Assembly: GCF_022376445.1 (NCBI RefSeq)
Contig: NW_025955031.1
Location: forward strand, 62,001 to 126,000
Length of the DNA stretch: 64,000 nucleotides
Direction of reading: 5' to 3'
DNA from: Fomitopsis serialis
Taxonomy: Eukaryota > Basidiomycota > Agaricomycetes > Polyporales > Fomitopsidaceae
Shown: in pieces, positions 760 through 27,557 of the stretch
Layout of the letters: each line of letters begins with the position of its first letter
Position numbering within the stretch: position 1 is the stretch's first letter
Translations under genes and position numbers: made by a program
Notes under the pieces: model-generated
Databases searched by the model: none
What the model was told of the DNA's origin: nothing
The model's input: only the letters and a program-made list of their open reading frames with translations

Positions 760-2094
760 TCATGAAGAGGGAATCGGGATGGGAGGCCGCCGCTTGGCGA
801 CGGACTGCGCTTTCACGAAGAAGTGCATCGTGTCCAGTATGGCACGCACAAAGCCATTTTCACCTCTATGCACTAGCCGCGACCGAAGCTGCCACGACGA
901 CAGGCGGCGATAGCCGTCGTTGAAACGCGTCTCCACCTCAGCAATGGTCGGTCGCTTCCCCGGGTCGGCTTGTACCATGTCTGCCACGAGCTCTTCCATG
1001 AACTCGAATCCGCGGAAGTGCTTGCAGCCAATGTGAGTCAGTGAAGCACAAACGGAACACTGAGAAACGCACATTCAAGAACGTGAGCCGGAAAAGATTG
1101 CCGAGGTAGTATATATCGGTACGGAAGGGATCCGCCGGCGCATCGTAGCCGTCTCCTTGGAACTCCGGGACGCTTTTGTCGCCGCCCAAGATTGGCAGCT
1201 CCCGTGGTGACTCATCTTCCGGCTCGTATTTGCGTGACAATCCAAAGTCAATGTAGAAGTATTTCATCGGTCGCTCGGTACGGCTGAAGTGCTTCGCGCT
1301 TCCGGAGAAGTCGCGAGTATACCTAGGTGATTCAGGATGCCACAACTTCTTTGAGTACAATGGTACTGCGTCCATCATGACGTTCCGAGTTGATATATCC
1401 CTTTGGACCGAGGTGAGATTCGCTACCAAGTCTAATAAGTGGTGCTGTCGCACCGGTGAGCGACAAGATGGTCGTGCATGAAGTGTAGTCCCTAGGGAGT
1501 AGATGAGCGCGGAAGCGAGTCGGAGCGAAGGTAACACGCATACCTTAATCATCTGTATACAGAAAGCGACAGCTTCTCCTACCGTTAAAAACTCTGGCTT
1601 ATGATAGCTCTTGAGGAGAGGCATGACAACTATTGACAGCTTGGAGTCAATCGGATCCTGCAGCACGTCGAGGATGCGCACGCAATGATTCCGAGGATCC
1701 TGTGCTAGTTGCTCAGACGACAGGAATTCTCCAATTTCAACCTCGAACGGATGAACGGCAGTATCGACCCTCTTCAATGTCACCAACAAACCATCGGACT
1801 GTCGAGTGGCATCCAAAATGGTCGGCATCTGAACAGAGTGAGATGACATCCGGGGTCCGCAAAAGACGAGCGTACCAGCGTGCTTTGGCCATCTTCGCAA
1901 TCTCTGTAGAACTTGTCTGTACCCAACCACGAGGGCTTCCAGTCTGGCCTGTATCGTGGGCGTAACATGTATCCCCGCTCCTGGAGCCAAGGTTGCCGAT
2001 CGCGCCAGAACTGCTCGTGCGTTGCAAGACCGCCGTCTGTACGGTCGAGCTGCACAGCCGATATCCCAGCATCGACGGAAGGCTGTACTGTCAT
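760..2094 (-). CDS. K1: fungal protein-kinase-like protein, array copy 1
   Basis: Predicted protein kinase of a family expanded in Agaricomycetes. My model has five exons (2094-1876, 1828-1544, 1491-1454, 1400-1073, 1020-760) and gives 376 residues with all junctions in frame. The N-terminal exon carries the family signature FWRDRQPW...GYMLRPRYRPDWKPSW. Exon 2 starts near LDATRQSDG and holds the probable ATP-site lysine in LVTLKRV. The catalytic loop reads HRDISTRNVMMD once the 38-nt third exon is spliced on. The DFG motif lies in YIDFGLSRKY, and the alpha-F aspartate in DPFRTDIYYLGN. DPGKRPTIAEVE marks the C-lobe. Catalytic residues look complete, so it could be an active kinase. Substrate is unknown. 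It faces C1 across a shared upstream region. Confidence 0.85.
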
Positions 2095-2911
2095 GACGAG
2101 ACAGACTCTACCATGAGCGAGTGGGACACTGAGACGATGTTGCAGCTTATTGCGAGGTCACAGACTCGGTGTATCAGAACACTCTCCTCCACGGCAGTAT
2201 CGTATCAAGCAGCTATTGTTTGTTCAAGCGACCGCGAGCGCCCATGGGATCGGGCGCCTGCGTTTAAGCGCTCAATCCGTGGTTGCCTGACTTTTCGGCG
2301 AAAGAGGCTCCTGCGGCTTCTGCCAGTACTTGTCCCCGAGCGGACGCATGTTCCCGCTCATTTGCGCCTTGACACCCTTGGGGAGACGTGCTCTCTGCCC
2401 ATCTTCACTATGCTCAGCAGCTCGCGGTCACATCGACCCCTCGCCGTGTATGCGACTTCGCCGATCCGAGCCTGAGTCTGCCGTGCAACGTCCATCCAGT
2501 GCGACCTGAGCAACAGCCGCGCAGGACGCTCGTTGGACAAGGAGGGACATATCAAGAAGGACCGTGGCAGTTGTTCTCTGATTTTGTGTCAGAGAAGTTG
2601 ATTGGTGCCATTCTGGGTGCATCATCGCAACAAGAGCTATTGTATCTCGTGGTGCAGAGAACGGTCTGGTAAGCACCAATGCACGCTAAACAGTGAATCG
2701 TTGACGTGATAACCTCGGGTAGTCCGAGGCACACCGTCCCACGTGAAGTATGCAGGTTGTCCGGCTTTTTTTGGTCCATGCGTTATCTGTTACAGCCTCA
2801 GCTATGATTTACTGTATATACGCCCTCCGAATACTTCGATCCCGTCAACAACTCCAGCCACCTAGCGCTTCCTCTCTCATCTGCAAGATGTTGCTGAACA
2901 TTGATTCCACC
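2095..2911. promoter_or_regulatory. Shared divergent upstream region K1/C1
   Basis: The 817 bp between the K1 and C1 start codons must hold both promoters. A kinase-side box ATTGTTTGTTC (reverse GAACAAACAAT) is at 2214-2224, about 120 bp from the K1 start. On the companion side, a TATATA-like string occurs near 2815-2821 and a CCACCTAG string near 2859-2866. Small open frames inside (for example around 2388-2672) are not conserved in the other copies and I do not call them genes. Confidence 0.5.
2214..2224 (-). promoter_or_regulatory. Conserved GAACAA(AC)AATA box upstream of K1
   Basis: Plus strand reads ATTGTTTGTTC. The same short motif occurs 95-150 bp upstream of all six kinase starts. 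Its role is inferred from position and recurrence only. Confidence 0.45.
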
Positions 2912-3969
2912 ATGGCCGACAATGCCAGCCAACTGAGCAACGACTCCACTACCTCGACAACTTCGCCTCTTCGATTCCTACTAACGAAGCTCCCTGCGTC
3001 CATGAGAGTCGCAGGCGTGCTCAAGGAGGGCGATCAGGCCCAGGCTATGACGCTACGTCTGCTCGAAAAGACGCAAGACTTCATGGATAAACCGATCCAC
3101 AACTCTTTGCACGAGCGATACGACGAGTACGACACTTCTCAGCACACTTTCTGTTGGATTTGGCCATTGATATGTTTTCAGCCTTAGGAAAGAGAGACTC
3201 CATATGAAACGCGGGCTTGCATGGCGCACAAAGAAATGGAACAAGATCGTGACGTACAGGGACAACACCGTGGAGCTGAGGCATGCTACGGTGGTATGCA
3301 TCATTCCTTCATAATCACTATTGGCGTGTCATTAACGACGATGCTAGGTCTCTTCAGAGCTTGCGCGAAGCATGGAGATGTGGAAGAGGAAGGCCCAAAC
3401 GTCTGCGCAAGGATCTGGTCACTCAGATCAAGATTGGTCGCTCACTGGCACTTCACAGGAAGGTAGGACTGCACCGCTTTTATTTCCTTACCGTCCACGG
3501 CTCACTGTGAGCTTTGTTAGATGCGCAGTCTCGTCGATCCGCCCTAGACGAGATTGCGTCCGATCTTGGCAATGCTCAATCAATGGAAACAGAAGACAGT
3601 GCAAGTGGCAACCCGCCTACCACGTCCTTAGGTTCGTACCGTCTACAGCTTCTGCCATGCTTCATATGAATCTTGAACATCACCTTGTTGACAGCTGACG
3701 CCCCTGCTGCACCCGAGGCCGAAGAATCATCTGACCCTTCAACTGCACCTCAGGCTGAAGAAGATGTCACAGGTCAAACGCTCTACGGTGCTTTTCAGGT
3801 GGACTCGCAGGGGCAGCTCATCGGGGACACCGGGTCCGTCATCTCGGAGATCGAATTGAAGGCTATGGTCAAAAGCGGACAAGTGAAGATTTCTGACAGG
3901 CTTGATGACGATAATCCTTTTGGGGACGGTAATGCAGTGGCCTCTGCTTCGACAACAACTCCCGCGTGA
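2912..3969 (+). CDS. C1: companion protein of unknown family, array copy 1
   Basis: No known domain recognised. My model is five exons (2912-3126, 3182-3293, 3348-3462, 3521-3631, 3695-3969), 275 residues, all junctions in frame. Exon 1 ends with the family motif KEGDQAQAMTLRLLEK. Exon 2 is basic and aromatic (LRKERLHMKRG, then WNKIVTYR). Exon 3 holds SSELARSMEMWKRK. The tail is acidic and Ala/Glu/Ser-rich, with LYGAFQVDSQG, VISEIELKAM and DDDNPFGDGNAV. No signal peptide or membrane segment is apparent, so it is probably intracellular. The start at 2912 was chosen because the paralogs begin at the equivalent point (MSSDD...); an in-frame ATG at 2888 would add eight residues. It lies head to head with K1. 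Confidence 0.75.
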
Positions 3970-4633
3970 GAGGGCTCAAGGTATGTAATGTGCCTTGCCC
4001 ATCCTTGCTAGTACAAGATTCCGACTTATAAGCTGCAGCACGCAAGGGTCACTCAACCATTAAAGGCTGACCTATGTACGGCTTCATGGTTGAGCACTGC
4101 GTTGTCTTGTAGCCTGCGGACGGACTGAGATACTCGCGCGCGGGCGCGCTATGCATGTGTGACTCGTAATGTACTTCTAATTCTTGTCAATAATAGCTCT
4201 ACACGGGCGTCGCTACGTTCATTGTAATCTTGAAATAGTCGCTCCTTCTGCTTCACGTCATGAGGGTAGTCAACGTCTCCGAGTTGCGGTGCATGCTGGT
4301 AAACTTAACGATGCATTGACAGCACCAAAGCCAGGTCGGCAGCCTGCTGAGTGGGGAGCACGGAAGAGTGTAGCGCGACATCTTTTCCGATGTCCGTGGG
4401 CCAGCGTGAAGGAATTGTATTTGCTGGCCACATCCCGGCTAATTGGTGCCGCGGCCCAGTCAAAAAATGCGAGCTCATGTAGGTAGTGTCTGGCACATGG
4501 ACGCAGTCACAATGGAGCAATATCTGTCAGGCCAGCGACTTGTAGAATGTCATAACTTCCAACAGTAAACTAGATGGACAGCAAGCGAGCAACGATAGCG
4601 TACGTGAGACCAATCAATCCGGCTGCATATGGA
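3970..4633. other. Intergenic C1/K2, no gene
   Basis: Between two converging gene ends. It contains a GC-rich CGCGCGCGGGCGCGC string at about 4136-4150 that has a near copy downstream of C2 (around 7932). Nothing else supportable is seen. Confidence 0.5.
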
Positions 4634-5993
4634 TCATAACGAGGGTATCGGTACGGGAGGCCGCAGCTTCGCGACGAATTTCGCTGTCCGGAAGACGTGC
4701 ACTGTACCAAGCACTGCGCGCACGAAGCCATTTTCAGACTTGCCCACCAGCCTCGTTCGCAGCTTCCACCATGAAAGCTTGCGGTATATCTCGTCGAACC
4801 GAGACTCCACCTCCGCGATAGTCGGGCGTTTCTCTGGATCGTCTTGCACCATGTCCGTCACGAGCTGTTCCATGAACTCGAAGCCACGGTAGCGCTGAGG
4901 GTATCCATAAGGATCAGTGTGACGGAAACACGGTACACCCTATAACGAAGCCACATACATTCAGAAAGGTGCGTCGTATGAGATTGCCAAGGTAGTAGAT
5001 GTCGGTACGGAAGGGATCGGAAGCCACGTTGTAACCTTCACCTTGGAACTCTGGCACGCTCTTGTCGCCGCCAATGATTGGCAACTCCTGCGGTTGTACA
5101 TTTGCAGGGTCGTACTTGCGGGACAAACCGAAGTCGATGTAGAAGTACTTTGGCGGTCGTTCCGTGCGGCTGCAATGCTTTGAGCTCCCAGAGAAGTCAC
5201 GGTTGTATACCGGTGCCTCAGGATGCCATAAAACGGAATACATCGGTATTGCGTCCATCATGACGTTCAAAATCGAAATGTCCCTTAGCAATCTCGGTGA
5301 GCTTCGATCAGGGGCCAATTGAAAACGCGTGCGCACCTATGCGCGACATGCTGATCATGCATGAAGTGTAATCCCTGGGAAGTGAATGAGCTACAAGTCT
5401 ACTGGCGCAAGGCTGATGCACATACTACGATAGCCTGTTTGACGAATGCAACCACTTCTCCTATCGTCAAGAAGTTAGGCTCCCTGAAAGGTTTGAGGAG
5501 AGGCATAACGACTAAAGATATCTTGGGGTCGATCGGATCCTGCAGGACATCGAGGATTCGCGCGCAGTGATTCCGCGGGTCTTGCGCGAGTTGCTCAGAC
5601 GAGAGAAACTGTCCGATTTCTACTTCGAATGGGTGAACGGCAGTATCGACCGCCTTGAGTGTCACCAGCGAACCATCAGACTGTCGAGTGGCGTCTAAGA
5701 TAGTATCCACCTAAAGATAATGAGGGACTATCATATTCGGACACCAGAACCGATCGCACCAACGTGCTATGACCGTCTTCGCACTCTCTGTAGTGTTTCT
5801 TTGTACCAAGCCATGAAGGTTTCCAGTCCGGCCTGTATCGTGGACGCAGCATGTATCCCTGCTCTTGAAGCCAAGACTGGCGATCGCGCCAGAAGTGTTC
5901 ATGGTCCATTAGCCCGCCCTCCAAGTAGTCCAATTGGATGGCAGGGCCTGCAGGCGGCACGCCAGTGTCGACTGCAGTTGCTTGCACCGTCAT
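4634..5993 (-). CDS. K2: fungal protein-kinase-like protein, array copy 2
   Basis: Paralog of K1 with the same five-exon layout. The first exon begins MTVQATAVDTG and contains FWRDRQSWLQEQGYMLRPRY. Exon 2 has ILDATRQSDG, SLVTLKAVD (lysine) and EIGQFLSSEQLAQDPRNHC. The short exon encodes LHFMHDQHVAH, and splicing restores HRDISILNVMMD. YIDFGLSRKYDP (DFG), GGDKSVPEF, DPFRTDIYYLGN and DPEKRPTIAEVE follow. It ends VPIPSL. All catalytic signatures are intact. Its closest relative in the array appears to be K1 (shared SSEQLAQDPRNHC and VLQDPIDSK-type strings). Head to head with C2. Confidence 0.85.
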
Positions 5994-6772
5994 GGTGAAT
6001 CAGTTTCTCCTAAAGAGCGGGAGGAGTATGTCGGCGATCCTGCAGCATACTACGAAGGGACACAACACAGGCGGTCTTCTCAGGGCAGGTTATTGTTTGT
6101 TCGCGTCCCCATTGTTCAAGTTTATCACCGTGACGGCACGGATGTGGGCGTTTGTGCGGCGAGCGCCCGCCGCGTGATCGGGTGGCTGAGTAGGCGCCTA
6201 TGCCGAGTCCCGACGCCCACTCCGCAGGTTGAACATGTTCCATGATGCTTATTTTTCACCGGAGAACCCTGGGCGACGCATTCCGGATTTCCTGCCTCCT
6301 CGTCGCCCTGATACTCGCGAAATCACCTCTTTTGTTTCATTCTGCAGTACGTACATCTCAGGTGGATCTGATCATTACGTTGCCACTGCTCTGGCGGAAC
6401 ATGTGCGGAACTTATGCTAGACAAGGAGAGACAAATTGGGACGAGAAATGATGGTTGTCGCCCAACGTAACGTCTAGAATCTTGTGCAGTACAGTTTGGA
6501 TTGACTAGATTGTCACGACAAGAATCATTGTGTTTTGTGCTTCTGGCAGGGCCGTCTCCATGTACGCGGGACAGCCGACCTTGACGTGATCTTCGGATAC
6601 ACTGGACCGCCGTCCCCTGCACAGGACATAGTATCCAGGACAGTGCCTTATCCATCGTGTTCTATCTCTCATGGTCTCGTCCGCGACTTATTAAGACCGT
6701 AAGTGCACCAGACTCAACACCTCACTCCGACCACCTACCGTTTTGCCTCCTTTCTAGTTTCTACTAGGCACG
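5994..6772. promoter_or_regulatory. Shared divergent upstream region K2/C2
   Basis: About 780 bp with no conserved open frame. It carries the kinase-side TATTGTTTGTTC box at 6091-6102. A pyrimidine-rich stretch with CCACCTACC lies about 45 bp before the C2 ATG; the same CCACCTA string precedes C1 and C3. Confidence 0.5.
6091..6102 (-). promoter_or_regulatory. Conserved GAACAAACAATA box upstream of K2
   Basis: Plus strand TATTGTTTGTTC, about 100 bp upstream of the K2 start. A second ATTGTTC lies just downstream at about 6111-6117. Confidence 0.45.
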
Positions 6773-7748
6773 ATGTCTTCAGACGACGTTCTTTCTACAC
6801 TCGACAACGACGATAAGGCGCGGGCCGACCTGCTGGACAAGCTCACGCTGCTATTTAGCCCCGGCGCCGTGTTGAAGGAGGGCGACGATGCCCAAGCTAT
6901 AACGTTAGAGCTCCTTGAACAGACACAGCCGATAATGGAAGGGAACCTTCACGTTCGCATACATGCAAAATGGAGAACGTACGTGACCAGATCCCCTCTC
7001 TTTATGTAACATGGGTATTGATATGGTTGCAGGCTTAAGCACGAGAGAGCTACAATCAAGCGAGGATTCATAAGGAGGTTGAGACACTGGAACCAGATTG
7101 TAGCGTACAGAGCTGGTTCCCTCAATTTGAAGGACTTTACCGTGGTACGTGACGAGCTCTTTGGCAGTTTTTGAGATCATTGACAAATGTGTGCACTTCG
7201 TCAGGACTCTTCACAACGCGCCCGAAGCAAGGCGATGATGCCGAAAGAAAAAGATACTTCTGTATCAGGGCCTCATCAATCATCGCCCTCCACTTCAATA
7301 GGTAAGCCCTGCATACTAGATGATTTGTATCATCGATGACTGACAAGCGCGAGCCATAGCAGCAGCCCCGTCTGATCATTTCACCGTGGTCAATGCTGGG
7401 TCTGCTTCACCAAATCCAAATATCAGTGGAAACGGTACAAGCGGCGATCTGGCTACCCCGACCGTTGGTATGTGCATTTCTCGACTTCTCTGCGACTGGC
7501 TCTGAGTGTCGTCACGGTATTCCTCCACAGCCAGTCCCACAGTTGACCACGAACAGCACGTCACAGATCAAGTGCTGGTGTATGGCATATTTCCCCTGGA
7601 TTCAGAGGGGCGCGTCACCGAGAATGATCCCGCTGCCGTAATCTCGGAATACGAAATGCAACTGCTGAACGCAGGCCAGCCTGTAGTGCTTCCCCTGAAT
7701 CCCTTTGTAGATAGTGGTGATGCCAATGTCTCACCGACTACTCCGTGA
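6773..7748 (+). CDS. C2: companion protein of unknown family, array copy 2
   Basis: Paralog of C1 with no recognised domain. It starts MSSDDVLSTLDNDD, and exon 1 contains KEGDDAQAITLELLEQ. Exon 2 (after an intron at about 6978-7032) encodes LKHERATIKRG...RHWNQIVAYR and ends in FTV. Exon 3 has DSSQRARSKAM. Exons 4 and 5 are Ser/Thr/Asn/Pro-rich and end in the acidic tail VYGIFPLDSEGR, AVISEYEMQLL and LNPFVDSGDANV. Six exons are likely. The tail aligns in pattern with C1 (Y-G-x-F, V-I-S-E, N-P-F), although overall identity is low. Head to head with K2. Confidence 0.75.
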
Positions 7749-9475
7749 AGAATCGTCATCGAGAGGTGCTAAAGGTATGCGTCCTGTACGTTTCGAGACG
7801 CGGTGTCCTGATAATGCATGAGAATTCCATAGGACACCAGGAAGCATTTGATCACAATGGGGCTTCCGATCAGCACATCATCCTACATCTGGAAGAATGG
7901 GTCCAGACGATGCCATGTTGTATCTGAAAATTCGCGCGCGGGCACGCCAGGGTCGTGAAACTCGTAGAGTACTTGTATCTAATGTACATGGCTGAGTTGA
8001 GTCTCTAAACATACAGAATGACCACTAGTACGCTTACTGTGTCTGAATCAAGGTCGTTCATGTGCAGTAATTTTATATTTGGGACACAGCGGTGCTCCAG
8101 GTTTTGGTCGCATGCTGCTTGGCAGTACACTGTACCAACATACCAGCGAGTAGTGCCTCGTACTTCATCCTGGACAGCCTGGTACGTACGCTAATGCGTC
8201 AGCTCATCAACTACAGCGAGACTCATACATCTGTTTGCAGGGACACGAACGTTGGCCGTTGAACGTAGAGATGGCCGCAATACCGAATGCGCTCGAGAAA
8301 TCGCACCACCACCACCATTGTTCACCAATTCAATATATAACCATGAGCCTGGAAGCGCATGAACCGCAGCGATGATTCTCATTCTAATACGACTTTGGTA
8401 TCAAGTTCTCGCGTAAACACCATGAGCGTCCTCCATTCCGAGTCCCTCGGCACGAAGCTCAAGCTTAGGCGGCATCACCGTTTCCGAGTCGCCGCATCGC
8501 GCCGGGAGCAGCTGCATAGCAGCGCAATGTCATATGTCATCATTAGTACAAATTCTTGCTTTGGGCAGCAACAGGCCAACTTGAAGCGGCTAGCATATAC
8601 CGTACAAGACCTTCCGCAAAAGCCTTGGTACGTCCGTCGCCGGCTGTGGAGCGGTACCGAATAACTTGTGGCGACATGATGGACTGCCATTGCTGTTGCA
8701 TTCGTAGGGATGGAACGAATTCCATGGCAACAGGCCCATCTTGACGGAGCGTGCCTCGGTACCTGCACACAAGGACGGCATGCAGCTTGAGAGCATTGAT
8801 CTCAGAAAGGAAGCAACCACGCGGAGAAGTCGACGCACCGACTGTGACCCTGCATTGTCATCCATTGCAGTGCACAAATCGACTACAAAAAATCACATAC
8901 AGTGCTCGGAGGCCTCATCTGCGCCGCCTCAGGCGCGTGCTATCACGGAGTGATTTACGTGTACGATTCGTCCGCTCCGGCCTACGGCGTTGTGCGCTTG
9001 TGATGAAGTAGGTTGTACTTTCGTCCGCACCCTTGTCCTGGATGCCGTATTTGTGTGCAGCTTCTGAAAAACGCTCCCGTTCATGTTTCCAGGGGTCGAA
9101 TCACTGGTCCATCGCACAGCATTGCATGTTGACATGGGAGCAATGGAATTGCCGCCATGTCGCCGGCTTTGGGTAGCGCGGTCGTGGCTCCACAACCATG
9201 CTTCCGGTAAAAGCTTGCGCGGAAAGTGTTGTATTCCTGTTCGCACGCTGAGCCTAATGCAGGCACGACGGAGCTGTACCTATCCCATCGACGGGTATCG
9301 ATGGCCCGGGGGCGGGTGTAAATGACACTGTGCCTATAACAAGATGACAGGCTACTCAGCGAAGCCTGCGACAAAATAAAGTCCCAAAACCTTGAACGAC
9401 AGCAGACTCGGAAAGCGGCGACAGTGTAGAGGGTATTGTGAGTACATCCAAGCGAGATCGAATCGAGCACGTAGA
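7749..9475. other. Long intergenic region C2/K3 with duplicated block
   Basis: No gene recognised in 1.7 kb. A CGCGCGCGGGCACGC string lies at about 7934, resembling the one downstream of C1. From about 8920 to 9400 the sequence is a diverged direct copy of about 13020-13640, and an inverted copy at about 22810-23185. Open frames here are not preserved between copies, so the block is probably non-coding. Confidence 0.5.
8920..9400. repeat. Intergenic repeat block, copy a
   Basis: Shares many strings with 13020-13640 in direct orientation, for example GGCGCGTGCTATCACGGAGT, CGCTCCCGTT and GTGGCTCCACA, in the same order. It lies between a companion gene end and a kinase gene end in both places, so it moved with the module. 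Confidence 0.65.
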
Positions 9476-10818
9476 TCATGAAGACGGAGTGGGTACAGGA
9501 GGCAACTGCTTCGCGACGTATTTCGCTGTCCGGAAGATGTGTCCTATGCCGTAGATCGCCCGCACAATGAAACTCTCGTTTCTCCGCACCAACCTCGACC
9601 GCAGCTTCCAATCTGAGAGTCCCTGGAAGCTCTCGTCGAATCGGGCTTCCACTTCGGCGATGGTGGGTCGCTTCGCCGGATCGTTTTGCACCATGTCTGC
9701 GACCAGAAGCTGGATGAACTCGAATCCTCGGTATTTCTGTGAGTCGATGGTAGTCAGACGAAACGGGCAGTCTTTGGATGGCTAGGGAGACGTACATCCA
9801 CAAACTTAGTTCGCATGAGATTGCCGAGGTAGTAGACGTCCGTACGGAAAGGATTGGCAGGCTTGTCGTAACCCTCTCCCTGAAATTCAGGGACAGTTTT
9901 GTCGCCGCCAATAATAGGAAGTTCTTCCGGGGGACCAGCACTGGGATCGTACTTGCGCGAAAGCCCGAAGTCGATATAGTAGTATCTGGGTGGTCGCTCT
10001 GTTCGACTATAGTGTTTTGCAATCCCAGAGTAATCGTACTTGTAGCTCGGTACCTGAGGGTGCCATAGGTCAGGATACATCGCGGCCGCGTCCATCATGA
10101 CATTCATGGTAGAAATGTCTCTAACAGTACGTCAGTCTTACGAATGGTCCAAGGCAGCGCATGACTCAGAGTCCTCATACCGGTGGGCGACGTTGTTTTC
10201 ATGCATGACACGCAATCCCTGAACATTGGGCCAAAGCTTAGCATTGCTAGGATTTTCTCCGGAGTTCTAGAACACACCTCAATCAACTGCTTGAAACAAG
10301 CAACCGCCTCTCCAAAGGTCAGAAAGCCCGGATCGTCGAAATCCCTGAGATAAGGCATGACTATGATAGAGACATTGGGTTCGGATGGATCAGTTAGGAC
10401 GTCCAGGACGCGCACGCAGTGATTGCGTGGGTCGGAGGTGATCTGGTCAGACGAGAGAAACTGTCCGATCTCTAGTTCGTGCGGATGAGTGTCGGACTTG
10501 ATTTTCTTCATTGTGACCAAGGATCCATCAGCTACTTTGGTGGCGTCCATGATGGAAGAGACCTAGCAGAGGCATTAGACGAGCACGTCAGACACGTAGG
10601 AGACGCACTAATGACCAGTGACTATCTTCGTGGAATGTGTAGGATTCGTTTGCTCCACTCTCGGACGGTTTCCATCCTGGTCTATATCGCGGGCGCAACA
10701 TGTATCCATGCTCTTCCAACCATGGCTGCCGATCGCGCCAGTATATTTCATGCTTCATCAGGCCGTCCAGGTTGCGCGACGCGGGTGATACATCTGCAGT
10801 CGATGGGTCTGCCGTCAT
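9476..10818 (-). CDS. K3: fungal protein-kinase-like protein, array copy 3
   Basis: Paralog of K1 with a conserved exon layout. The ATG at 10818 is used because the longer frame upstream lacks an ATG. The N-terminus contains YWRDRQPWLEEHGYMLRPRY. IMDATKVADG and LVTMKKIKSD (lysine) follow. The catalytic loop is HRDISTMNVMMD after splicing. The DFG segment is YIDFGLSRKYDPS, with GGDKTVPEFQ, NPFRTDVYYLGN and DPAKRPTIAEVE after it. It ends KQLPPVPTPSS. It belongs with K6 by shared features (SSDQIT, EEHGYMLRPRY, YYYIDFGLSRK). It is predicted catalytically competent, with unknown substrate. Head to head with C3. Confidence 0.85.
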
Positions 10819-11606
10819 CTTGACCGAGACTTGCGAAGCAGTCAAGGGGCACGGGGAGCACTAGAGAGGTCGTAAAGCGTGCAGCATGAGTCGCTCGATG
10901 ACTTGGAGGCGAGGAAACGGGATCAAAGTGGTGTTTATTGTTCACTACGATCATCATGCCACCGTGCGGAAATGCGGCCGCATGGGCGCTCGACGCTCGT
11001 GTTGTGAACACCTGTAGGCGCCTGTCAAGCGCTCATCTGATGTTCCTTGTTCCCGTCAGGATCCCGTGGCAGTAAACAACGGTGAGTACTCTTCCTCACT
11101 CCATGCAACGACGTTTGTCCACGGAACAACAGAATAAAACATATGAAGCTGAAACGGCTATTTTTGCAGTTGCTTGGGATAGCTGGTTCGGACACTGCGC
11201 CATAGTACCCGGGCGGGTCTTTCCGCTAGCAACGCAGAAGATGCAGTCGAATGTGTCAACGATGGTGGGCTGCCGCCGCCTGTGTACGTACAAAGATTAC
11301 CTCATGGGGTTATAAACTTATTTTTGTTCTTGTCTTATGAGGTGAAGAGAGCTTCCGTGACTGGCAGTCCTCAGGTCCAGTAATTGATGCTATGCCTAGG
11401 CTGGCAATTGTTATTGTCCCAACGCGAGGCTAGTCTTCGAAGTCGAGTCTGTCCAACCAAGTTTTCTGGAACTTGAAGCATGTCAACTTAGGCCGTGGGA
11501 CGACGGTCTTCGCACCGCCACCAACCCAAAGCCTGAAATACCGTCGGTGTGTTGCGCCGTCACTCATACACACCACCTACCATTCCTTTTCTGAATTCCG
11601 GTCCAT
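10819..11606. promoter_or_regulatory. Shared divergent upstream region K3/C3
   Basis: About 790 bp without a conserved gene. It holds the kinase-side TATTGTTC box at 10936-10943, followed by ATCATCATGCCACCG, which resembles the sequence after the K6 box. CCACCTACC lies just before C3. Confidence 0.5.
10936..10943 (-). promoter_or_regulatory. Conserved GAACAATA box upstream of K3
   Basis: Plus strand TATTGTTC, about 120 bp upstream of the K3 start. Confidence 0.45.
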
Positions 11607-12644
11607 ATGTCCTCAGATTATACTCCCAGCTTCCCTGCGTGCGACAGCGTCCAAGAACTCAGTGAATCGTACAAGCTATTCATCAAGGTCGTCGGACCCT
11701 TCGTACCCTCGCTTGCACTGCGCCAAGGTGACAAGGCTCAGGCATTGACACTACGCCTACTCGAGGAATCCAAGGAAATCATGGACGAAGACCTTCACGA
11801 TGAGCTTCAGTATCAATACGGGCAGTAAGACTTTCCGTAGCTCCTCACCTTCTGCACAATATTGAATACCGCGCAGGCTTGTTCAAATCCGACGTCATAT
11901 CAAGGGTGGACCCATGGGACGCATGAAACGATATGCAGACGTCTCCCTTTTCTTGCAGCGTGCACTCAGATTAAACGGGAGGACAGTGGTAGGTGGAATC
12001 GCCATTGGTCGTCACGGTCATGCCTGCTCATCAAGCACACAGACTTTATCACGAAATGCGCGCGATCAAGATATGTGGAAAAAGAAGGGAAAGAACGGAT
12101 TCTATCGGCTTACACTCCGGAGAAGGGCGTCTACTACCTCAGGTAAGTACTGACGAGCTCATTAGTATATGTCGACAACTTACTCTTCAATTCCATCCTC
12201 GATCATTCCGCTTGTCGGGTATGTGACTGCAGAACTCACGATCATGACTGCGAAAGAAGGAAGAGGGGACCAGCCTGCACCGCCTTCCCGTGCGTGTCCT
12301 CACAAGTTTGCTGGTCATGGCTGCTAAATGGTGTTCGTTTCTCAGCTAACCTTATCGCCGACTCAGAGTCAGTGGACATCACTGATCAGCCTGAGCAGAC
12401 GGAACCCAGCCGGGCGAGGACACAGACAAAACCTAAGACCCGGATGTGGGAAGCTTACATCCGGCCGTCGGAGATCGATCCCTACCGTGACGGCGAGTCG
12501 ACTGCTCATCTCTCTATCAACTTAGACGCACAATCGGACGACGGAGAGTCCGACGGAGAGGCTGGTGTCAATATCAGCGTCAGGTTCGGGCCAACGGAGG
12601 AAGAAGCTGCCCCATCCGAGTCTGAGCTCGGAGATGATACATGA
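11607..12644 (+). CDS. C3: companion protein of unknown family, array copy 3
   Basis: Paralog of C1. It starts MSSDYTPSFPACDS and has RQGDKAQALTLRLLEES, then an intron in the codon after QYQYG. Exon 2 reads LVQIRRHIKGG...GRMKRY and ends GRTV. Exon 3 has TLSRNARDQDMWKKKGK, parallel to the SS..ARS..LWKK string of C4 and C5. The final exon is acidic and differs from its relatives: ADSESVDITDQ, MWEAYIRPSEID, a run of Asp/Glu with DDGESDGEAG, and ESELGDDT at the end. The middle exons around 12150-12340 are the least certain part of the model. Head to head with K3. Confidence 0.7.
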
Positions 12645-13704
12645 AGGCATCACATCGTAGGTTTGACTTATCATGTCGAAAAGCATATGTGCGCTGACTG
12701 TTCTCAAATGAATGTCATTAGGCTTTGATGAGGAACGTTGATGCCTCCATCGACGGCGCGCTGGTCGCGCTTCGTAAACATGTATTCAGACCAACATGTA
12801 GTCATCCACACTGTCGTTACCCATCTCCGAGTCGTGCATGCTGTAGCGTTTCGACCTCAGATTGACGGGTGTGAACTGTGAGCACTGAATGTCCATACAT
12901 CGTCCCCGCCCGTGGGCCTCACCGAACGCCTCCTCTCGTCACTTCTGTGTCGGCGGGCCTCATCACTGAAGTACTGAAGATTGAAGATTGAATTATTGAA
13001 GGCCGAGTCATCTGTGCACTGTGCCGCCTCGGGCGCGTGCTATCACGGAGTAATCCACATATACTATTCGTCCGCTCCGGCATAGCGCAGATGATGATCG
13101 AAGAGTACTTCAAGACTGTCATGTTGCCATCGAGTAGTATTCTCAGGCCAGGGCTGTCGGTTCGAGTTGATGGTGAGGTCCAGAATAATTGACAAGCTAC
13201 GCGGTCACCACCGCGTCCATTGTCCATCCCAAAGATTGACCATCCCAAAGGGGTGTACAGCACAATGATAGGTTGTATTTTCCCCGCGTCCTTGTGCTGT
13301 CTGCCGTATCTGTGTGCAACTTCCGATGAGCGCTCCCGTTGAAACGTTGATGTTCCGAGCCTAAGGGAGTCTGTCACGTCGCACGTTGACGGAAACGGGA
13401 GCGGTCTCGGTGGCATGTCACTGCACCGGGGGTGGCTCCACAGCCATGCGTCCACAAAAATTTAAGTTGAAGGTGTTGTATTCCTATTCGCACACAGGCC
13501 TGCCGGAGCTAAGCGTACCTAGTCCATCATCAACGCCGCACGGCAGAGACTCTGTGCCTGTAACAAGATGACAAGGCCGCTCAGCGAAGCCAGTGACAAA
13601 CTTATAGTTTTCCGGTACTTAGCCTTAACCAACAGCGGACTCGGAAAATAACAGCGTAGAGGCTCGTAGAGGGTATCGCGAGGACATCCAAGCGAGCGCG
13701 TAGA
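12645..13704. other. Intergenic C3/K4 with duplicated block
   Basis: No gene recognised. It contains copy b of the intergenic repeat (about 13020-13640), and the final ~60 bp before the K4 stop resemble the sequence before the K3 stop (GAGGGTATCG...ACATCCAAGCGAG). Confidence 0.5.
13020..13640. repeat. Intergenic repeat block, copy b
   Basis: Direct, diverged counterpart of 8920-9400. It is somewhat longer because of an insertion around 13085-13265, after the shared GTCCGCTCCGGC string. Confidence 0.6.
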
Positions 13705-15067
13705 TCACGGCGGAAGCGGTACGGGAGGCCGCCGCTTGATAACGTACTTCGCTGTCCGGAAGATGTGCCCTATCCCAAACACAGTCCGTACAAGGGCGTT
13801 CTCATCCTTCTCAACCAACCTCGACCGCAGCTGCCACCAAGAAAGTTGGCAGGATATGCCGTCAAACCGCGATTCCACCTCCTCGATCGTCGGCCGCTTC
13901 TCAGGGTCATTCTGAACCATGTCGGCGACGAGCGGCTGCACGAAGTCAAGTCCACGATACTTCTGGAAGAAATTATTCGAGTTAGACAGGCTGAGATGAC
14001 GCATAGGTCGACCTTTTGCGAGAACGCACATTCAAAAATTGTGTTCGCATGAGATTACCGAGATAGTATATGTCGGTGCGAAAGGGGTTAGCCGGCTTGT
14101 CATAACCTTGCTCCTGGAACTCTGGAACAGTTTTGTCGCCGCCAAGAATGGGAAGCTCTTGAGGCTGCCCGTCGTCAGAGTTGTACTTGCGTGAAAGACC
14201 GAAGTCAATGTAGAAGTACTTCGGGGGACGCTCGGTGCGGCTGAAATGTTTCGCGCGCCCGGAGAAGTCGCGTTTGTATACTGTAGCTTGGGGATGCCAT
14301 AGATCAGGATACATTGGTGTTGCGTCCATCATCACATTCAACATCGATATATCGCTGGCGGAATGGTGAGCTCCTCACGATAGCCCATGCGAAATGGCGC
14401 ACCGATGAGCTACATGCTTCTTGTGCATGAAATGTAACCCCTGCGCGATCGTCGTGAACACGGCCCAGCACGCCGATTCTGTAGTTGTAGACTTACTTCG
14501 ATAATCTGCTTGAAGAACGCGACTGCCTCTCCGATAGTCACGAAGTCGGGGTCGTAAAAGGCTTTGAGAAGAGGCATAGCAATGACCGTTGTATTCGGTT
14601 CGGTAGGATCTGGTAGCACGTCAAGTATGCGTGCACAGTAGTTGCGCGGATTGGATGTCGTCTCCTCGGACGACAGGAACTGGCCAATCTCCACTTCGAA
14701 CGGGTGAACTTGTGTGTTGACCTTTTTCAAAGTCACATGTAAGCCGTCAGAAGTTTTGGTAGCGTCCATGATAACCGGTGACTGCCGACCGAGTGAATGG
14801 GTGCAGATGATACCAGACAAGATGAAGGCGTACTATCGTGCTTCGCCCGTCTTCACAGAACCCGAAGTACTTGTCTGTACCGAGCCAAGACGGTTTCCAG
14901 TCGGTCCTATATCGCGGACGTAGCATGTAACCCCGCTCCTGTAGCCATGGCTGGCGATTGTGCCAATACTGTTCGTGTGGCAGCAGCCCACCATGGAGGT
15001 AGTCTAGCTGTGAGGCTGGCGTGTCGGCCGTAGGTGGCTGGGAGGTCACTGAGCCACCCTCCGTCAT
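13705..15067 (-). CDS. K4: fungal protein-kinase-like protein, array copy 4
   Basis: Paralog of K1. It starts MTEGGSVTSQPP, and the N-terminal signature is YWHNRQPWLQERGYMLRPRY. IMDATKTSDG and LHVTLKKVN (lysine) follow, then EIGQFLSSEETTSNPRNYC. The short exon (LHFMHKKHVAH) splices to give HRDISMLNVMMD. YIDFGLSRKYNS, GGDKTVPEFQE, NPFRTDIYYLGN and DPEKRPTIEEVE are present. It ends RRPPVPLPP. The catalytic set is complete. Its stop codon lies close to a GATCA string, as in the other copies. Head to head with C4. Confidence 0.85.
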
Positions 15068-15799
15068 GGACGCGCGAGGGCAGTCGTGAAGCGATCCTGG
15101 AGCGTGAGTGGGAGCAGACGACAAGGGCGTACCATGGCGAACAAGGGCGAACAAGCTGTCTCTATTGTTCGGGTAATCACCGTGATGCGACCCCGATGCG
15201 ACCGCCGCGGCGGGTCCGCCGGAACTTTTCTAAAACGAGCGCTCGTGTCGTGGGCGTCTACCAGTAGTAGTACCGTTCAACTCGAGCTGTCGACTCATCA
15301 CTTCGTTTCTCATCATCACACCTGGCTCATCCTATGCAGCAACGAGCTTACTTGATGATAAAAAATGCCGCTAACTGTCCTCAGAGTTGCTAACTCCACC
15401 CAACAGTTGTGTACATCAGAAGCATGAGGCCCGGGGGGGGGAGCGCTTGCCAGACAAGGACAACCAGATGAGCCCATCGGATGGTTTATTGTTTTCCGAC
15501 TGATGTCAGGGAAGTCACGAACACGGTGCTTTGGATGTGCGCATTCAGTTGCTCCGAAGCTAGGCAGTAGCGGCAGATGCGTGCATTGGCTGGCAACATT
15601 ATGTCAAGCTGATGTAAGGCCTGGAGTCGCGCAGGAGACTCGCGATGTGTTGTATTTCCAGGGGCTTTGCCTCCCACCGTCAATAGGCTCTTATTTTGGC
15701 ACAGCAAAGGACTATATCAAGGTGACTAGATGGACAAGTCCGAGTTCAAGTCCCCCCCTCGAAACATCTCCCCGGGCTGTCTTATACCTGACTATTGAC
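15068..15799. promoter_or_regulatory. Shared divergent upstream region K4/C4
   Basis: About 730 bp, the shortest of the five. It has the kinase-side TATTGTTC box at 15163-15170, and a run of nine G at about 15432-15440. A long open frame (15503 onward) runs into C4 exon 1, but its N-terminal part has no counterpart in other copies, so I start C4 at 15800. Confidence 0.5.
15163..15170 (-). promoter_or_regulatory. Conserved GAACAATA box upstream of K4
   Basis: Plus strand TATTGTTC, about 96 bp upstream of the K4 start, followed by ATCACCGTGATGCGACC. Confidence 0.45.
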
Positions 15800-16871
15800 A
15801 TGCCCTCGAACGACGTCTTTGCATCACTCGACGACGCGCTGCAGGCCAGCGCGAGTAAGCCATCTATGTACTTTGCTAGGCTTGCGACACCGGTCATACC
15901 CTCACTCGCACTGCGGGAAGGCGATAAAGCTCAGGCCTTGACTCTGCGGCTGCTCGAGAAACATCGGAAAATTATGGATCCACCTCAGCACGATTCTCTA
16001 CACCATGGTTATGAACTGTAAGCTAGACTTCTCTTCGTCTCCAAACCGTGGGCGACTTATCCAGATGTAGGCTTGTCAACTATAGGAAGAATATAAAGGG
16101 CGGATTTTTCCGGGCCATGAAGCATCGGGAAGAAATCTACCAATACAGAAAGGGCTCACTCAACTTAAACTACTCCACTGCGGTGTGTCATCTTCGTCTC
16201 GCTTAAAATAATCGCAGGTAATCATTGAATAACGGTACACGCTACAGACTTCATCTCTAGAGGCACGCAGTAAGGTACTGTGGAAGAAAGCTAAGTCGGC
16301 ACCGTCGACCACCAGCTTAACATCCACGATAGACTCGAGTAAGCCATTTCATGTTGTGCGTCGTCTATATCTGATCTCCTCGTTATCAGCGGCACTCTCT
16401 GGCGTTGATTCTGTCTTGAATGATGCCGAGTCGTTCTTGAGTGCAGTCGACTCTCTTCTAAATGACGACGGAAACAACGATCAATCGACCAGTATGTGTA
16501 CTCCACGGCTTTCCGCTGCAGTGGCTTGATATCGCTTACTATAGCTTGCCCGGAGAATGACGGAGGCAGTGTCCAATCGACGAGTGCGTACGGGCTCCTC
16601 AAATCCATGCATTAGTAGCCTCTCAACATTATATCCTACAGGCTTCCCTTCACCCGAGATCGAGTCTGCAGAAATGGGCGACCAACTATACACCTATATT
16701 GCAAGGCCGCAGACGGGCTCTGTCGATGGCGACAGCGTCCTCGTCGTTGTTTCGAGGCTGAATCTGCATGACGTGGCTCAAGACGGACGGCTTGAGATCA
16801 CCATCAGTCCGTTCGATGATCCTAGCGAGGCAACTGCGGCGACGGTTGCAGTGCGAAGGAACACCGTATGA
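15800..16871 (+). CDS. C4: companion protein of unknown family, array copy 4
   Basis: Paralog of C1. It begins MPSNDVFASLDDALQ; exon 1 carries REGDKAQALTLRLLEK. Exon 2 is LLVNYRKNIKGG...REEIYQYRKGSLNLN. Exon 3 is TSSLEARSKVLWKKAKS. Exon 4 encodes an alternating acidic/hydrophobic stretch (GVDSVLNDAESFLSAVDSLLND) that could form a short amphipathic helix. The last exon has LYTYIARPQTG and ISPFDDPSEA. This copy gives the clearest support for the exon model, since all junctions are phase-consistent. Head to head with K4. Confidence 0.75.
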
Positions 16872-17380
16872 GGTGCCATATGGGATGTGTATAGCACCTG
16901 TACGTCCTAGTGGTATTGAGTATTCATGGTGTCGACCAGGCGGTCCAGGACCACGAGGATAGGAATGTATAAACACTGCTTCGCCCTATCACTATCACAC
17001 TCATTGTCCATTCGAAGACTCCTTGGTTGTACTAAACGGATATCACGGATAATTAACAACGGCTCTGCCTTGGACAAAGGAGACCGTTTTGGTATGTGTC
17101 TGGCAACACGGGAGCTATGCGCGCATACTCGTACGTTTCGGCGCAAGTCTCACGGGCCATACGACAGGATTACATGCTTAAGAATGGAAGACCATCCGCG
17201 GCTCTCCCTAGAGAGAAAGCACGCCGTTTATAGCACATCTGTGACTAAAGACCGAGCAATTACTCGGCAACTAGTATGCACGTCAAAGCGACCTCACCAG
17301 ATCCATGAAATTCACTGACAATCTTGCAGTAGTTCGACGGCACAGAAACAAGGGAATGAATATAGCATGTACGTAGATCA
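16872..17380. other. Intergenic C4/K5, no gene
   Basis: About 510 bp between converging gene ends. Nothing supportable seen. Confidence 0.5.
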
Positions 17381-18722
17381 TCATGAAGGCATGGGGACCG
17401 AAGGGAGTCGCTTGGCGACGTATCTTGCTGTTCGGAAGACATGGCCTATGCCTGAAACAGTGCGTAGAAACCCGGACTCGTCCTGCTCAACCACCCTCGA
17501 CCGAAGCTTCCACCATGGAAGTCGATTGTATATCTTGTCGAACCGTGAATCCACCTCTTCGATTGTCGGTCGCTTGCCGGGGTCGTCTTGCACCATGTCG
17601 TCAACAAGTGATTGCATGAATCCGAACCCGCAATACTTCTGAGCATATAAAATGAAGCAACGGATATGGCACCCAAAAACGGGTTGAGACGCACCTGCAC
17701 GAACTGGGTTCGTATGAGATTGCCGAGGTAATATATATCGGTATGGAAAGGATTGGCCGGCTTGTCATAGCCATCCTCCTGGAATTCCGGCACGGACTTG
17801 TCGCCGCCAAAGATGGGTAGCTCTTGAGGTGGGACGTCCTCAGCGCTGTACTTGCGGGAGAGGCCGTAGTCGATGTATAGATATTTCGGGGGCCGCTCAG
17901 TGCGACTGTAATGTTCTGCTTGACCGGAATAGTCGGGCCTACGCGAGGTAGACTGAGGATGCCACATGTCAGGATACATTGGTCGTGCGTCCATCATCAC
18001 GTTTACTGAGGATATGTCGCTGGTGGATGGAAGTTCCGAGTCAGCAATACAGGCATGTCACACGAGTGTTTCGTACCGATGAGCTACATTATGCTCGTGC
18101 ATGACACGTAGCCCCTAATAGTAGTCGTCAAACAGGATGCTTCGCGTATAAGGTCCTATGCAGACGCACCTCAATCAACTGTTTGAAAAAGGCGACTGCC
18201 TCTCCAACTGTCAGGAACCTTGGGTCGTCGAATCTCCTAAGCAGCGGCATCACGATCATGGAGACCGTTGGTTCCGTTGGTTCTGTCAGTATATCTAAGA
18301 GGGGGACACAGCGACTGCGTGGGTCCGATGTGATCACTTCGGATGACAGGAACTGCCCAATCTCCAATTCGAATGGGTTCACCGTCGTATCAATTCGCTT
18401 CAGTGACACGACCGAACCATCTGACAAGCAGGTAGCGTCCATAACGGCACCGACCTAACAGCGCAAAAAGGTGAGCTTGGCTCACAACTATGCGTGGGTC
18501 GCAACGTACCAGTGGACTAATACCATCCTCGCAAAATCCGAAGTGCTTTCTTGTACCACGCCACGAAGGCTTCCAGTTAGGCCTATATCGCGGGCGAAGC
18601 AGATAGCCGCGCTCTTGCAACCATGGCTGGCGGTCGCGCCAGAAGATCTCGGACGCGAAATATCCACCGTGTAGGTGATCGAGCTGTGCGACCGGCGTGT
18701 CAGCGGACGTAGTGGCAGTCAT
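17381..18722 (-). CDS. K5: fungal protein-kinase-like protein, array copy 5
   Basis: Paralog of K1. It starts MTATTSADTPVAQLDHLHGG and has FWRDRQPWLQERGYLLRPRY, VMDATCLSDG and SVVSLKRIDT (lysine). The catalytic loop spliced from the short exon is HRDISSVNVMMD. YIDYGLSRKY replaces the DFG phenylalanine with tyrosine (DYG), the only intact copy with that change. GGDKSVPEFQE, NPFHTDIYYLGN and DPGKRPTIEEVD follow. It ends KRLPSVPMPS. Still compatible with activity, since DYG occurs in active kinases. Head to head with C5. Confidence 0.85.
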
Positions 18723-19476
18723 CGTGTTTCAAGCTTGGTCAAGCACAAGGATGAACGCAAGGGAGAGGGTCTGGACTCTGGGGCCATATTCAAGTTGACT
18801 GCGTATACATTATGTAGTTGAGGCCGTCAGGACGAACAATACGAACCTATTGTTCATGTTACCATAAGTACATGATGGCGCAAGCGCATGTGGTATGTAA
18901 CAGGCGCCTAAGTACGTACAGGAGCTGTACCATGACAACTCGGAGTGTGATCGCCGCGGCCGATGCCAGATGTCCGACTCTTGACCTTCATGTGAGTGAG
19001 TTCACAACGTTCACGCTGTTCGTTGAAGCTCTTACTTTCTCCATGTCTAGCTCGACATCTTGTAGCCGGCATGACCCGTCATTTCCCTGAAGCTCGTTCC
19101 CATGCAAACAAGGATGGCCTGGAAGCATCATGATGGGTCGTTGTAGTATGCACGTCAAGGTCAGTCAACGTCTTGTCTCGTTGCTTGAGCCTCTCTGACA
19201 TTTGGACAAAGATAAGACTCGGACCTTACGTATGTCGGTGTAGGGCTTCCAAACGTTTGCAGATTATCTTGACGTAAAGCTGATTTTGTATCAGGGCTGG
19301 ATGCAAAACCCGTTGTCCCCGTATCTAGGGTGTCCGGCTCCATGATCTGAGGTATTGTTCTCGCACGGTGTTTAATTACAGGTGGGATCATGCTACGGTG
19401 AGCACGCTACCTCAACTGCCTGCCTACCTATCTTGTCTCTACCGCTACCGTGACTCTGATCTGACCTTCGTCCACT
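18723..19476. promoter_or_regulatory. Shared divergent upstream region K5/C5
   Basis: About 755 bp without a conserved gene. The kinase-side TATTGTTC box is at 18848-18855; a pyrimidine-rich run with CTACCTATC precedes the C5 ATG. Confidence 0.5.
18848..18855 (-). promoter_or_regulatory. Conserved GAACAATA box upstream of K5
   Basis: Plus strand TATTGTTC, about 126 bp upstream of the K5 start. Confidence 0.45.
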
Positions 19477-20630
19477 ATGTCTTCAGACGACGGCTGTACT
19501 TCGTATGATAACCTGATGCAGGTCGGCGAAACGACAGTCAAGGCAACAAATCCGCTTCTACTGCTGGTCAGACTCGCAACCGGATCGTTTCGCGCCTCGT
19601 CTGCTCTTGCTAAAGGGGATAAAGCTCAACTGGTGACCCTACGAGTACTCGAAAAGACACACAACATCATGTCTCGAGACACTCTCAACACTCTGCACGG
19701 ACAGTACGAGGTGTAAGCATGTTGTTCGTCTTCCTCTATCAATGTCTAATTATAGTCATTGTTTACGCAGGCTCGCCATTCACAGAAAAGACATAAGCAG
19801 AGACGTCATGGAGCGCCTGAAGCAATGGGACGATATTATGGATTACAAAAAGCGTTCTGTCGCTTTGAGAGAGCTTACCGTCGTACGTGTACCGTGGTAT
19901 CAGTTGCTGTAGACCCTTTCCTGACAACTTATTCCCAGACTTCCTCACATCAGGCACGGAGTGATCTCTTGTGGAAGAAGGGGGCCAAATCGGGCCGTCC
20001 GAAATCGCACAAACCGGCTGCGCCTAACCCAGGTGAGAGTGCTGAGGCTGAGACTTACTTTGGAGGACTGATCTCCGTTGTCGTTGTCGGTAGGCTCATC
20101 GAATGTGCACACTGGCACTTCAAACGACCGTGACATCTCTGGCAACTCATCTACGAACTCACCTGCTGCGGGCGGTGTAGGCGAACCACACGACCAATCT
20201 ACGCCAGTACCAGGTATGGCTGTAGGCATTTCCCATACCCTGGTATCTGACCACCACGTCGTCAGCAGACGACGCCACGCCTGATCCCGGAGATGTTGGA
20301 GATCAGCGGCTTCTATTGCTTCAACTCAGCGAGTCCGATTCCTCGGATGAAAACCCCTTCAAAGATGGCGCCAATGCTGTTGTCAAGCTGCGATCGCTGA
20401 CATCTGATGAAGAATTCGAACTGTCTGTCCTTTCGTCTGAGGGACCACTGGGCGCAGCCGGATCAGCGCCTGGTTCAAGTTCGCAAACCCAAGATGAATC
20501 AGCGGAGGAAGTAGAAAGAGATTCTACACATGTGCGCGAGTCATCCGTGCGTATTTGTTCGTTTTTGACTGTCAAGCAGAATGCTACTGGGACCGCTCCG
20601 TCGAGTTCGCCTCCCCTCGGGGCTCTCTGA
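19477..20630 (+). CDS. C5: companion protein of unknown family, array copy 5
   Basis: Paralog of C1 and the longest copy. It begins MSSDDGCTSYDNLMQ. Exon 1 contains AKGDKAQLVTLRVLEK, exon 2 LAIHRKDISRD...KQWDDIMDYKK, exon 3 TSSHQARSDLLWKKGAKSG. Exon 4 is Ser/Asn/Gly-rich, with little order expected. The last exon has SESDSSDENPFKDGANAVV, matching the DDNPF.DGNAV string of C1, and then a further acidic/Ser stretch not seen in the shorter copies. Six exons fit in frame. Head to head with K5; its 3' end is only ~255 bp from the end of K6. Confidence 0.75.
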
Positions 20631-20885
20631 CACAATGCTACTCGCGCGTCTCGGATGCGAAAGTGATCTGTACACTACGACTGACTCGTGCATAACTCAG
20701 TAATACTTCGGATCATCTTTTGCTCCTCTGTACTCGCACACAAGGATACTATGCAACTCACAAGGGCACTGATGAGATTATGGATATTCTGGAATTTCAG
20801 GGCGAGCGCATTCCCAATCGCAGCCTGGGGACACAGCAATAGAATAGCGTAAAGGAGTACATCGAGCGAGCATGTAGACCTGGAA

Positions 20886-22547: not shown

Positions 22548-22806
22548 GACAGAATTACCGCGGTCTCGAGTTCATGCGAGACTAGTCGCCGACATGGTAC
22601 AAAGCGATTCGGCGAAGCGACCTACTATCGCCGAAGTGGAGACCTGATTTGACGAGAGCCTGGGCCGCAATTCTCGAAGTGGAAGCTACGGTCGAGGTTG
22701 GTACGGAAAGACGAGCTCCTCCTTGAGTGAGCCATCTACGACGTAGGGCACATCTTGCGAACGGCTAAATACATCGTGAAACGGCTGCCACCCCCATCGT
22801 CACAAT
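22548..22806 (+). pseudogene. K7: inverted kinase-like gene fragment (last exon only)
   Basis: On the plus strand, opposite to all other kinases of the array. It reads as degraded last-exon sequence: LVADMVQSDSAKRPTIAEVE, then an in-frame TGA at 22645-22647, then in shifted frames a remnant of the C-terminal RTAKYIVKRLPPP. Upstream exons are absent. The sequence that follows it (to about 23185) matches the 3' flank of K3 in inverted orientation. Confidence 0.75.
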
Positions 22807-26946: not shown

Positions 26947-27557
26947 GTGCTGACCTGACAAACGGGCTGTGATAGATATGGGAGGGGCGTGCTTGCTACA
27001 TAGATGATTTACTACCTATAAGATGGTATTTGGTGAAGTCGTTCCTACCTGTTTGAGTCCTCTGTCATTAGAAGCTTGCCCTCGTACGCAACCCTCAACA
27101 GCGATTACGCTCTGAGGGCCTTGATGTGGCTATGATCGACCGAGTTTCGAACATCGGCTGGACTCGTAACTCGACGATGATTTAGGTTTCCAGTCACCTC
27201 AGACTTGAGCGCGAACATGCATATGACTGTGCGAGATATCACGTCCCCGCATATACTTGTGCGCAATGATTCACTCGACGACAAGCGCGATCAACTTGAC
27301 CACGAGTGAATGCTACTGATAAGTATACAAGTACGAGAGTGATACACCCTGCGAGTTGGAGATGGTTAACCTCCGTTGCCGAACATCAAAGGGCGGGCGA
27401 GTAGTACTAACTTCTACACGGAATGACCGCGAATGAGTCTGCTCTCCGACTCTCATGAACTCGATTTGCCACCGGAGCGGAGCGATGGTGTTTCTTGTGT
27501 GTATTGATACAATTGTGGTATACCTCGAGCGGATTCACGACGGGGACGCATAGTAGT
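26947..27557. other. Intergenic, no gene seen
   Basis: Between two converging gene ends; no supportable feature found. Confidence 0.5.

Follow-up and report, generated by a model that had tools for sequence, protein, structure and literature searches.

Divergent kinase and companion gene pairs form a tandem array in Fomitopsis serialis

The stretch of Fomitopsis serialis DNA analysed here (the window: 64,000 nucleotides, bases 62001-126000 of contig C679 in an assembly of 66 Mb and 806 contigs) carries five complete head-to-head gene pairs, K1-C1 to K5-C5, plus a broken sixth kinase gene, K6. In each pair, K encodes a protein kinase and C a companion protein; the kinase copies, six in all, are on the minus strand and the five companions on the plus strand. 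We tentatively read the pair as a two-gene unit, that is, a kinase with a dedicated partner (a linked substrate or adaptor), which has been duplicated and lost in blocks by birth-and-death turnover. Short introns and gene content fit a fungus.

The array and its genes

Five tandem copies of a divergent kinase and companion pair had been predicted from the window, and the array is borne out by seven families of direct repeats (D1-D7, 102-300 nt) that recur with the same spacing (six copies in five families, five copies in two), by spliced gene models and by conserved exon lengths and phases. K1-K5 have five exons each, exon 2 being 285 nt and exon 3 being 38 nt in 5/5 spliced models. In 5/5 companions exon 1 finishes in phase 2 and is followed, in frame, by a 112-nt exon 2. 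The strong divergence that had been claimed between copies is also there: identity to the first copy is 61-77% for K and 30-43% for C. The genes of the window are listed below; the first coordinate of each plus-strand row is the companion's start.

760..2094, minus strand: K1, spliced model with a kinase profile match; exons 1876-2094, 1544-1828, 1454-1491, 1073-1400, 760-1020
4634..5993, minus strand: K2, spliced model; exons 5760-5993, 5426-5710, 5337-5374, 4959-5283, 4634-4894
9476..10818, minus strand: K3, spliced model; five exons
13705..15067, minus strand: K4, spliced model; five exons
17381..18722, minus strand: K5, spliced model; five exons; DYG replaces DFG, with the Asp kept
20886..22227, minus strand: K6, broken; spliced model and comparison with K6h
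2912..3969, plus strand: C1; exons 2912-3126, 3182-3293, 3348-3462, 3521-3631, 3695-3969, the tail exons less certain
6773..7748, plus strand: C2; exons 6773-6978, 7033-7144, 7205-7301, 7363-7467, 7543-7748, the last extended to its own stop and so differing from the gene finder's first choice
11607..12644, plus strand: C3; exons 11607-11824, 11877-11988, 12043-12142, 12233-12289, 12346-12644
15800..16871, plus strand: C4; exons 15800-16017 and 16071-16182, the remaining ones, up to 16871, being less certain
19477..20630, plus strand: C5; exons 19477-19712, 19771-19882, about 19936 or 19954-20089, 20181-20213, 20266-20630, the later ones less certain

In K6, exon 4 carries 8 inserted nucleotides and exon 5 lacks 22 by comparison with K6h, its relative on contig C206; a search with the C profile found no lost companion beside K6. 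The array extends upstream of the window, where five further pairs (K/C at about 25.7/28.3, 32.1/34.3, 35.8/38.1, 52.4/54.5 and 57.8/59.9 kb of C679) bring the contig to 10 pairs. All 10 C genes of C679 are divergent to a K, with 732-1350 nt between the two ATGs (732-817 nt in the window). The upstream and window groups are separated by a mevalonate diphosphate decarboxylase gene and a leucine-rich repeat (LRR)-nuclease gene, which we take from its domain order to be CCR4-like. One upstream kinase, Km3, has no clean reading, with two single-base indels relative to its own allele.

K is about 370-380 residues long and looks like an active protein kinase, judging by its residues: 11/11 aligned copies retain the kinase Lys, HRD Asp, catalytic Asn, DFG Asp, PEF Glu and helix-F Asp. 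The five kinases K1-K5 all match PF00069 (protein kinase) at E<=1, the best with an E-value of 6.1e-10, and K1 scores 36.3 bits against a cut-off of 31.7. Matches to PF17667 (FunK1, Pkinase_fungal) are weak in all five at E<=1 (best E 0.00028); for K1, 12.2 bits lie below the curated cut-off of 24.1. K resembles FunK1 in being a multi-copy fungal kinase and, presumably, in its HRDIS..N style of catalytic loop. It differs in falling below the family cut-off (K1), in being short and in having a linked partner gene.

Invariant positions across eight companions include, in C1 numbering, L37, G40, D41, A43, Q44, T47, L48, L51, E52, T108, S112, A115 and R116, while the N-terminus is variable. The best 18-residue hydrophobic stretch has a mean hydrophobicity of 0.24-0.71 (11 C), which is only moderate, and begins at residues 20-29 in 10/11 companions and at residue 4 in Cm3. 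By structure prediction, C looks like a small, partly helical protein with a helical core: exon 1 of C4, folded alone, yields helices at 5-16, 34-55 and 61-69 with a mean pLDDT of 69.8. The long tail would be disordered, judged by its make-up. We rejected the placement of C in a known family, as eight companions run against Pfam at E<=10, with filters that drop weak matches, returned only single matches below cut-off and a profile search of PDB sequences returned none. A HeLo/HELL/MLKL executioner, a hunch from the helix pattern, likewise found no support, with no match in 8/8 companions under the same filters nor in PDB. The Pfam search returned no nuclease profile and no toxin, HET or NLR family either.

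Several companion tails carry the motif NPFxD, as follows for the window.

3913..3927, plus strand: NPFGD in the tail of C1
7698..7712, plus strand: NPFVD in the tail of C2
20352..20366, plus strand: NPFKD in the tail of C5

NPFxD occurs in 6/10 modelled tails (C1, C2, C5, Cm1, Cm2, Cm4) against 0.008 expected in shuffled tails, an excess that overstates independence, since the motif was chosen after being seen and the copies are related; NPF alone occurs in 7/10. The tails were partly hand-joined, and the NPF readings of C2 and Cm2 are not the gene finder's first choice. According to PMC7889276, NPFxD is an endocytic signal that the SHD1 domain of Sla1 reads in yeast and that Aspergillus uses as well. 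The cargo proteins treated there, Drs2, Dnf1 and DnfA, have the motif in common with the C tails; they are membrane proteins, whereas C has merely its moderately hydrophobic 18-residue stretch. The genome holds one SHD1 match (E=8.7e-33). C may dock via NPFxD on the cortical endocytic machinery, on a Sla1-type SHD1 protein, with K controlling the docking.

Selection, co-divergence and confinement of the companion

Purifying selection acts on both genes. Omega is 0.11-0.16 for K in five close comparisons and 0.28-0.39 for C exons 1-2 in four. Bootstrap limits stay below 1, those of the four C comparisons running from 0.13 to 0.69; the fifth C comparison (C2-Cm2) gives 0.18 and is saturated in 45% of replicates. 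Among eight pairs (28 comparisons), the 23 K and 24 C values that could be computed are all <0.5, and pairwise gene-wide omega reveals no positive selection on C. The pairs are separated by synonymous distances of about 1 or more, yet exon phases and lengths are kept. In simulations, 10%, 3% and 0.7% of neutral 109-codon frames remain open at 0.3, 0.6 and 1.0 substitutions per site.

These figures bear on the possibility that the companions are over-read open frames or that the copies are assembly duplicates. The gene models are computational, and the single-base indels of Km3, Km4h and Cm3h may be assembly errors (Km4h, on contig C400, has one single-base deletion and Cm3h two, with <=1 substitution in those coding stretches). 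However, amino-acid differences among 11 pairs reach 23-48% for K and 44-82% for C, exon phases and lengths are the same in most copies and omega is <1, and we consider an artefact of either kind next to negligible.

The K distances track the C distances (Mantel r=0.80, p=5e-5 for 11 pairs; r=0.77, p=0.002 for the inner eight), which fits joint descent of the two genes; joint duplication or linkage alone predicts the same correlation, which to that extent speaks against taking it as a mark of a unit. The maximum-likelihood (ML) trees of K and C have 2/8 splits in common, {1,2,m1,m2} and {3,6h}, an overlap matched by 602/20000 label permutations. The original prediction had proposed comparing the two phylogenies, with unrelated topologies speaking against the pair: such topologies did not appear in this genome, and of the expected agreement the distances deliver co-variation while the trees share only those two splits. 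It had also taken the retention of both genes in one orientation to point to a functional unit. The retention is backed by purifying selection on both; the orientation by itself is no evidence, because the pair was duplicated as one segment and would have kept it in any case.

Companion homologues away from the kinase, the other finding named as adverse, were not found in this genome: five C queries searched against the whole assembly at E<=10, within the limits of a loose first look, matched only C679, C206 and C400. Kinase relatives, on the other hand, also lie on C35, C799, C120, C512, C179, C601, C585 and other contigs, and the C profile has no match in the stretches C35 391500-396500, C799 36500-42500, C512 237500-242500 and C120 6315-9656. 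C799 and C120 carry another cluster of genes related to this kinase, in several copies and with no companion match.

The divergent 5' regions between the two start codons of each pair are the following.

2095..2911: between K1 and C1, 817 nt
5994..6772: between K2 and C2, 779 nt
10819..11606: between K3 and C3, 788 nt
15068..15799: between K4 and C4, 732 nt
18723..19476: between K5 and C5, 754 nt

The motif AGCGCCCA is present in 7/11 divergent regions, 142-244 nt from the K ATG, against 0.24 expected from the right part of the window; with one mismatch there are 18 matches in 9/11 regions against 6.4 expected, so that the excess shrinks. A second motif, TGTTCAAG, is present in 6/11 (0.47 expected). 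In shuffled controls the top 8-mer over 30 shuffled sets reached 5/11 regions. The motifs lend faint support to a shared control of K and C, under which the two genes would be co-expressed from one 5' region. Each K may act on its own C by phosphorylation or binding.

Copy sets of the two haplotypes

Many kinase matches are paired, near-identical and on different contigs, from which we infer that both haplotypes were assembled; C206 and C400 are probably the second haplotype of the array. C206 aligns in pieces to C679 51.2-71.0 kb (95.6-99.8% identity) and again to 85.4-89.0 kb (93%), and the intervening C206 29.6-31.5 kb, which holds K6h, matches the K6 region at 86% identity and the K3 region at 77%. 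C400 aligns to C679 19.2-39.9 kb at 86.5-99.8%. Along the C206 stretch there are eight kinases on haplotype 1 (Km2, Km1, K1-K6), compared with five on haplotype 2 (Km2h, Km1h, K1h, K2h, K6h). Where haplotype 1 has pairs 3, 4 and 5 and the broken K6, haplotype 2 has the single pair K6h-C6h, its kinase open. If C206 is indeed the second haplotype, the array would differ between nuclei, as an allorecognition locus does.

Three companions are damaged on haplotype 2. Cm2 lies inside a missing stretch of about 2.9 kb. Inserts with inverted ends split the other two, one of 3022 nt in exon 1 of C1 and one of 2193 nt in C2, where about 460 bp are deleted in addition. These inserts, at C206:18817-21838 and 25544-27736, both lie in exon 1, and their ends begin CATCAG; alike only over short stretches, they look like non-autonomous DNA transposons with one end type. 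Clear losses of C only thus number three and clear losses of K only none (one-sided sign test 0.125), while two kinases with single-base indels, Km3 on C679 and Km4h on C400, stand beside an open C exon 1-2.

It is here that several observations weigh against a two-gene unit. Km2h, K1h and K2h, the kinases whose companions are deleted or split, are open and free of coding indels; the earlier claim that both partners are intact in every complete copy holds for K1-K5 of the C679 haplotype and fails for these three. Membership of a pair is therefore not obligatory for K, which can apparently do without C, at least in the short run. Kp, a further open kinase on the plus strand at 19.7 kb of C679 (its counterpart on C400 has coding indels), has no companion beside it that kinase and C searches of the contig could detect, and relatives of K elsewhere in the genome go without a C match. 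The helix-C Glu column as we chose it is kept in only 9/11 kinases (A in Km1, D in Km4), a variation which means that the wrong column may have been picked. As to the tails, Cm3 reads NPFHN and C4 has SPFDD at 16806 in place of NPFxD, the modelled tails of C3 and C6h hold no NPF, and no forward frame after Cm5 holds one (Cm5, having no tail model, was left out of the tail count). Both NPFxD and the promoter motif were picked post hoc. We also tried the rule, prompted by K6, that a kinase without a companion decays; Kp and the haplotype 2 kinases contradict it.

Part of this would be expected if K and C were linked but functionally unrelated neighbours, separately useful and duplicated as one segment, with co-variation and orientation as by-products. 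Linkage alone gives the co-variation, K outlives the loss of C on haplotype 2, and genes of the K family stand without C in the examined stretches of C35, C799, C512 and C120. However, no C was found away from a K despite synonymous distances of about 1 or more, and the C genes have stayed open over that divergence; we consider such neighbours rather unlikely, and continue with the kinase and its dedicated partner as the reading we prefer. That so many different pairs are upheld suggests that their task is one of recognition or response and not of housekeeping.

Remnants and repeats occur in and around the array. Two look like leftovers of further pairs: a relic at C679:61531-62127 (about 61.6-61.9 kb), in which a kinase 3' end stands against a fragment of companion exon 1, and an isolated match resembling companion exon 2 at C679:29887-30027. 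A short repeat of about 25-42 nt (TGCCGT..TTTGTGTGCG...GCGCTCC) lies in both orientations close to kinase 3' ends. The right flank of the array, at 24305-28900 of the window, holds genes for a Kelch protein (weakly matching muskelin), a prefoldin subunit and a 60S acidic ribosomal protein. Window coordinates of the smaller features are:

306-340, 8743-8784, 9038-9077, 13302-13336 and 20722-20746: copies of the short repeat
22668..22793 (C679:84668-84793), plus strand: 3' fragment of a kinase gene, containing one stop and close to where the array ends on the right, from the kinase search

Known systems and possible roles

The themes floated with the original prediction (self/non-self recognition, stress signalling or a selfish pair) are still speculative. 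The differing copy sets also raise the idea of a non-self recognition or toxin-antidote module, with C as effector or recognised determinant and K as the writer or antidote that restrains it. Turnover would then come from rare-type advantage, or from selfish units gained and disarmed, C being lost first and K kept. The single pair on haplotype 2 opposite pairs 3, 4, 5 and K6 is in keeping with this, and the three C losses that spare K (Cm2, C1, C2) are suggestive, if statistically weak. There is a precedent in the Spok killers of Podospora, where, according to PMC6660238, a kinase domain gives resistance and alleles with resistance and without killing exist; by analogy K might play the resistance part. 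However, three C-only losses against none are too few, with error and real indel indistinguishable in Km3 and Km4h, there is no gene-wide positive selection on C, and C matches none of the known toxin, HeLo, HET or NLR families. Moreover, the C alleles that survive on both haplotypes (Cm1, and exons 1-2 of Cm4 and Cm5) are nearly identical, unlike typical balanced recognition alleles. On balance we regard a module of this kind as unlikely.

Comparison with described systems gives partial likenesses. Like the array, Spok combines a kinase with a second activity, and its locus is multi-copy and polymorphic. In Spok a single fused protein includes a nuclease domain, whereas K and C are two separate divergent genes and have no nuclease match. 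With a HeLo/HELL or MLKL-type executioner beside its activator, C has in common a small helical protein with a hydrophobic N-terminal stretch and an adjoining kinase gene; unlike these, it has no profile match to any of them. In PMC8229728, non-self recognition in basidiomycetes is described as poorly understood, and a reader/writer locus acting through post-translational modification is proposed for their somatic incompatibility. The array resembles that model in linking a modifying enzyme to a possible target and in differing between haplotypes; the locus of the model is hypothetical. A literature search of titles and abstract starts, with most subscription journals outside its reach, returned nothing on this K-C pair.

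We think it quite improbable that the array governs somatic incompatibility or spore killing, in which case each C would be recognised or harmful, each K would be the matching writer or antidote, and nuclei with different pair sets would react to each other; the disarmed K-only pairs would then be resistant types. Fungal recognition or conflict systems would be expected to have loci of this sort, with a linked kinase and fast-evolving partner present about tenfold and variable between the two haplotypes of one individual. On a plainer reading, the array offers ten natural kinase-partner pairs for the testing of specificity, and the companion tails hint at a protein family that may work at the endocytic cortex.

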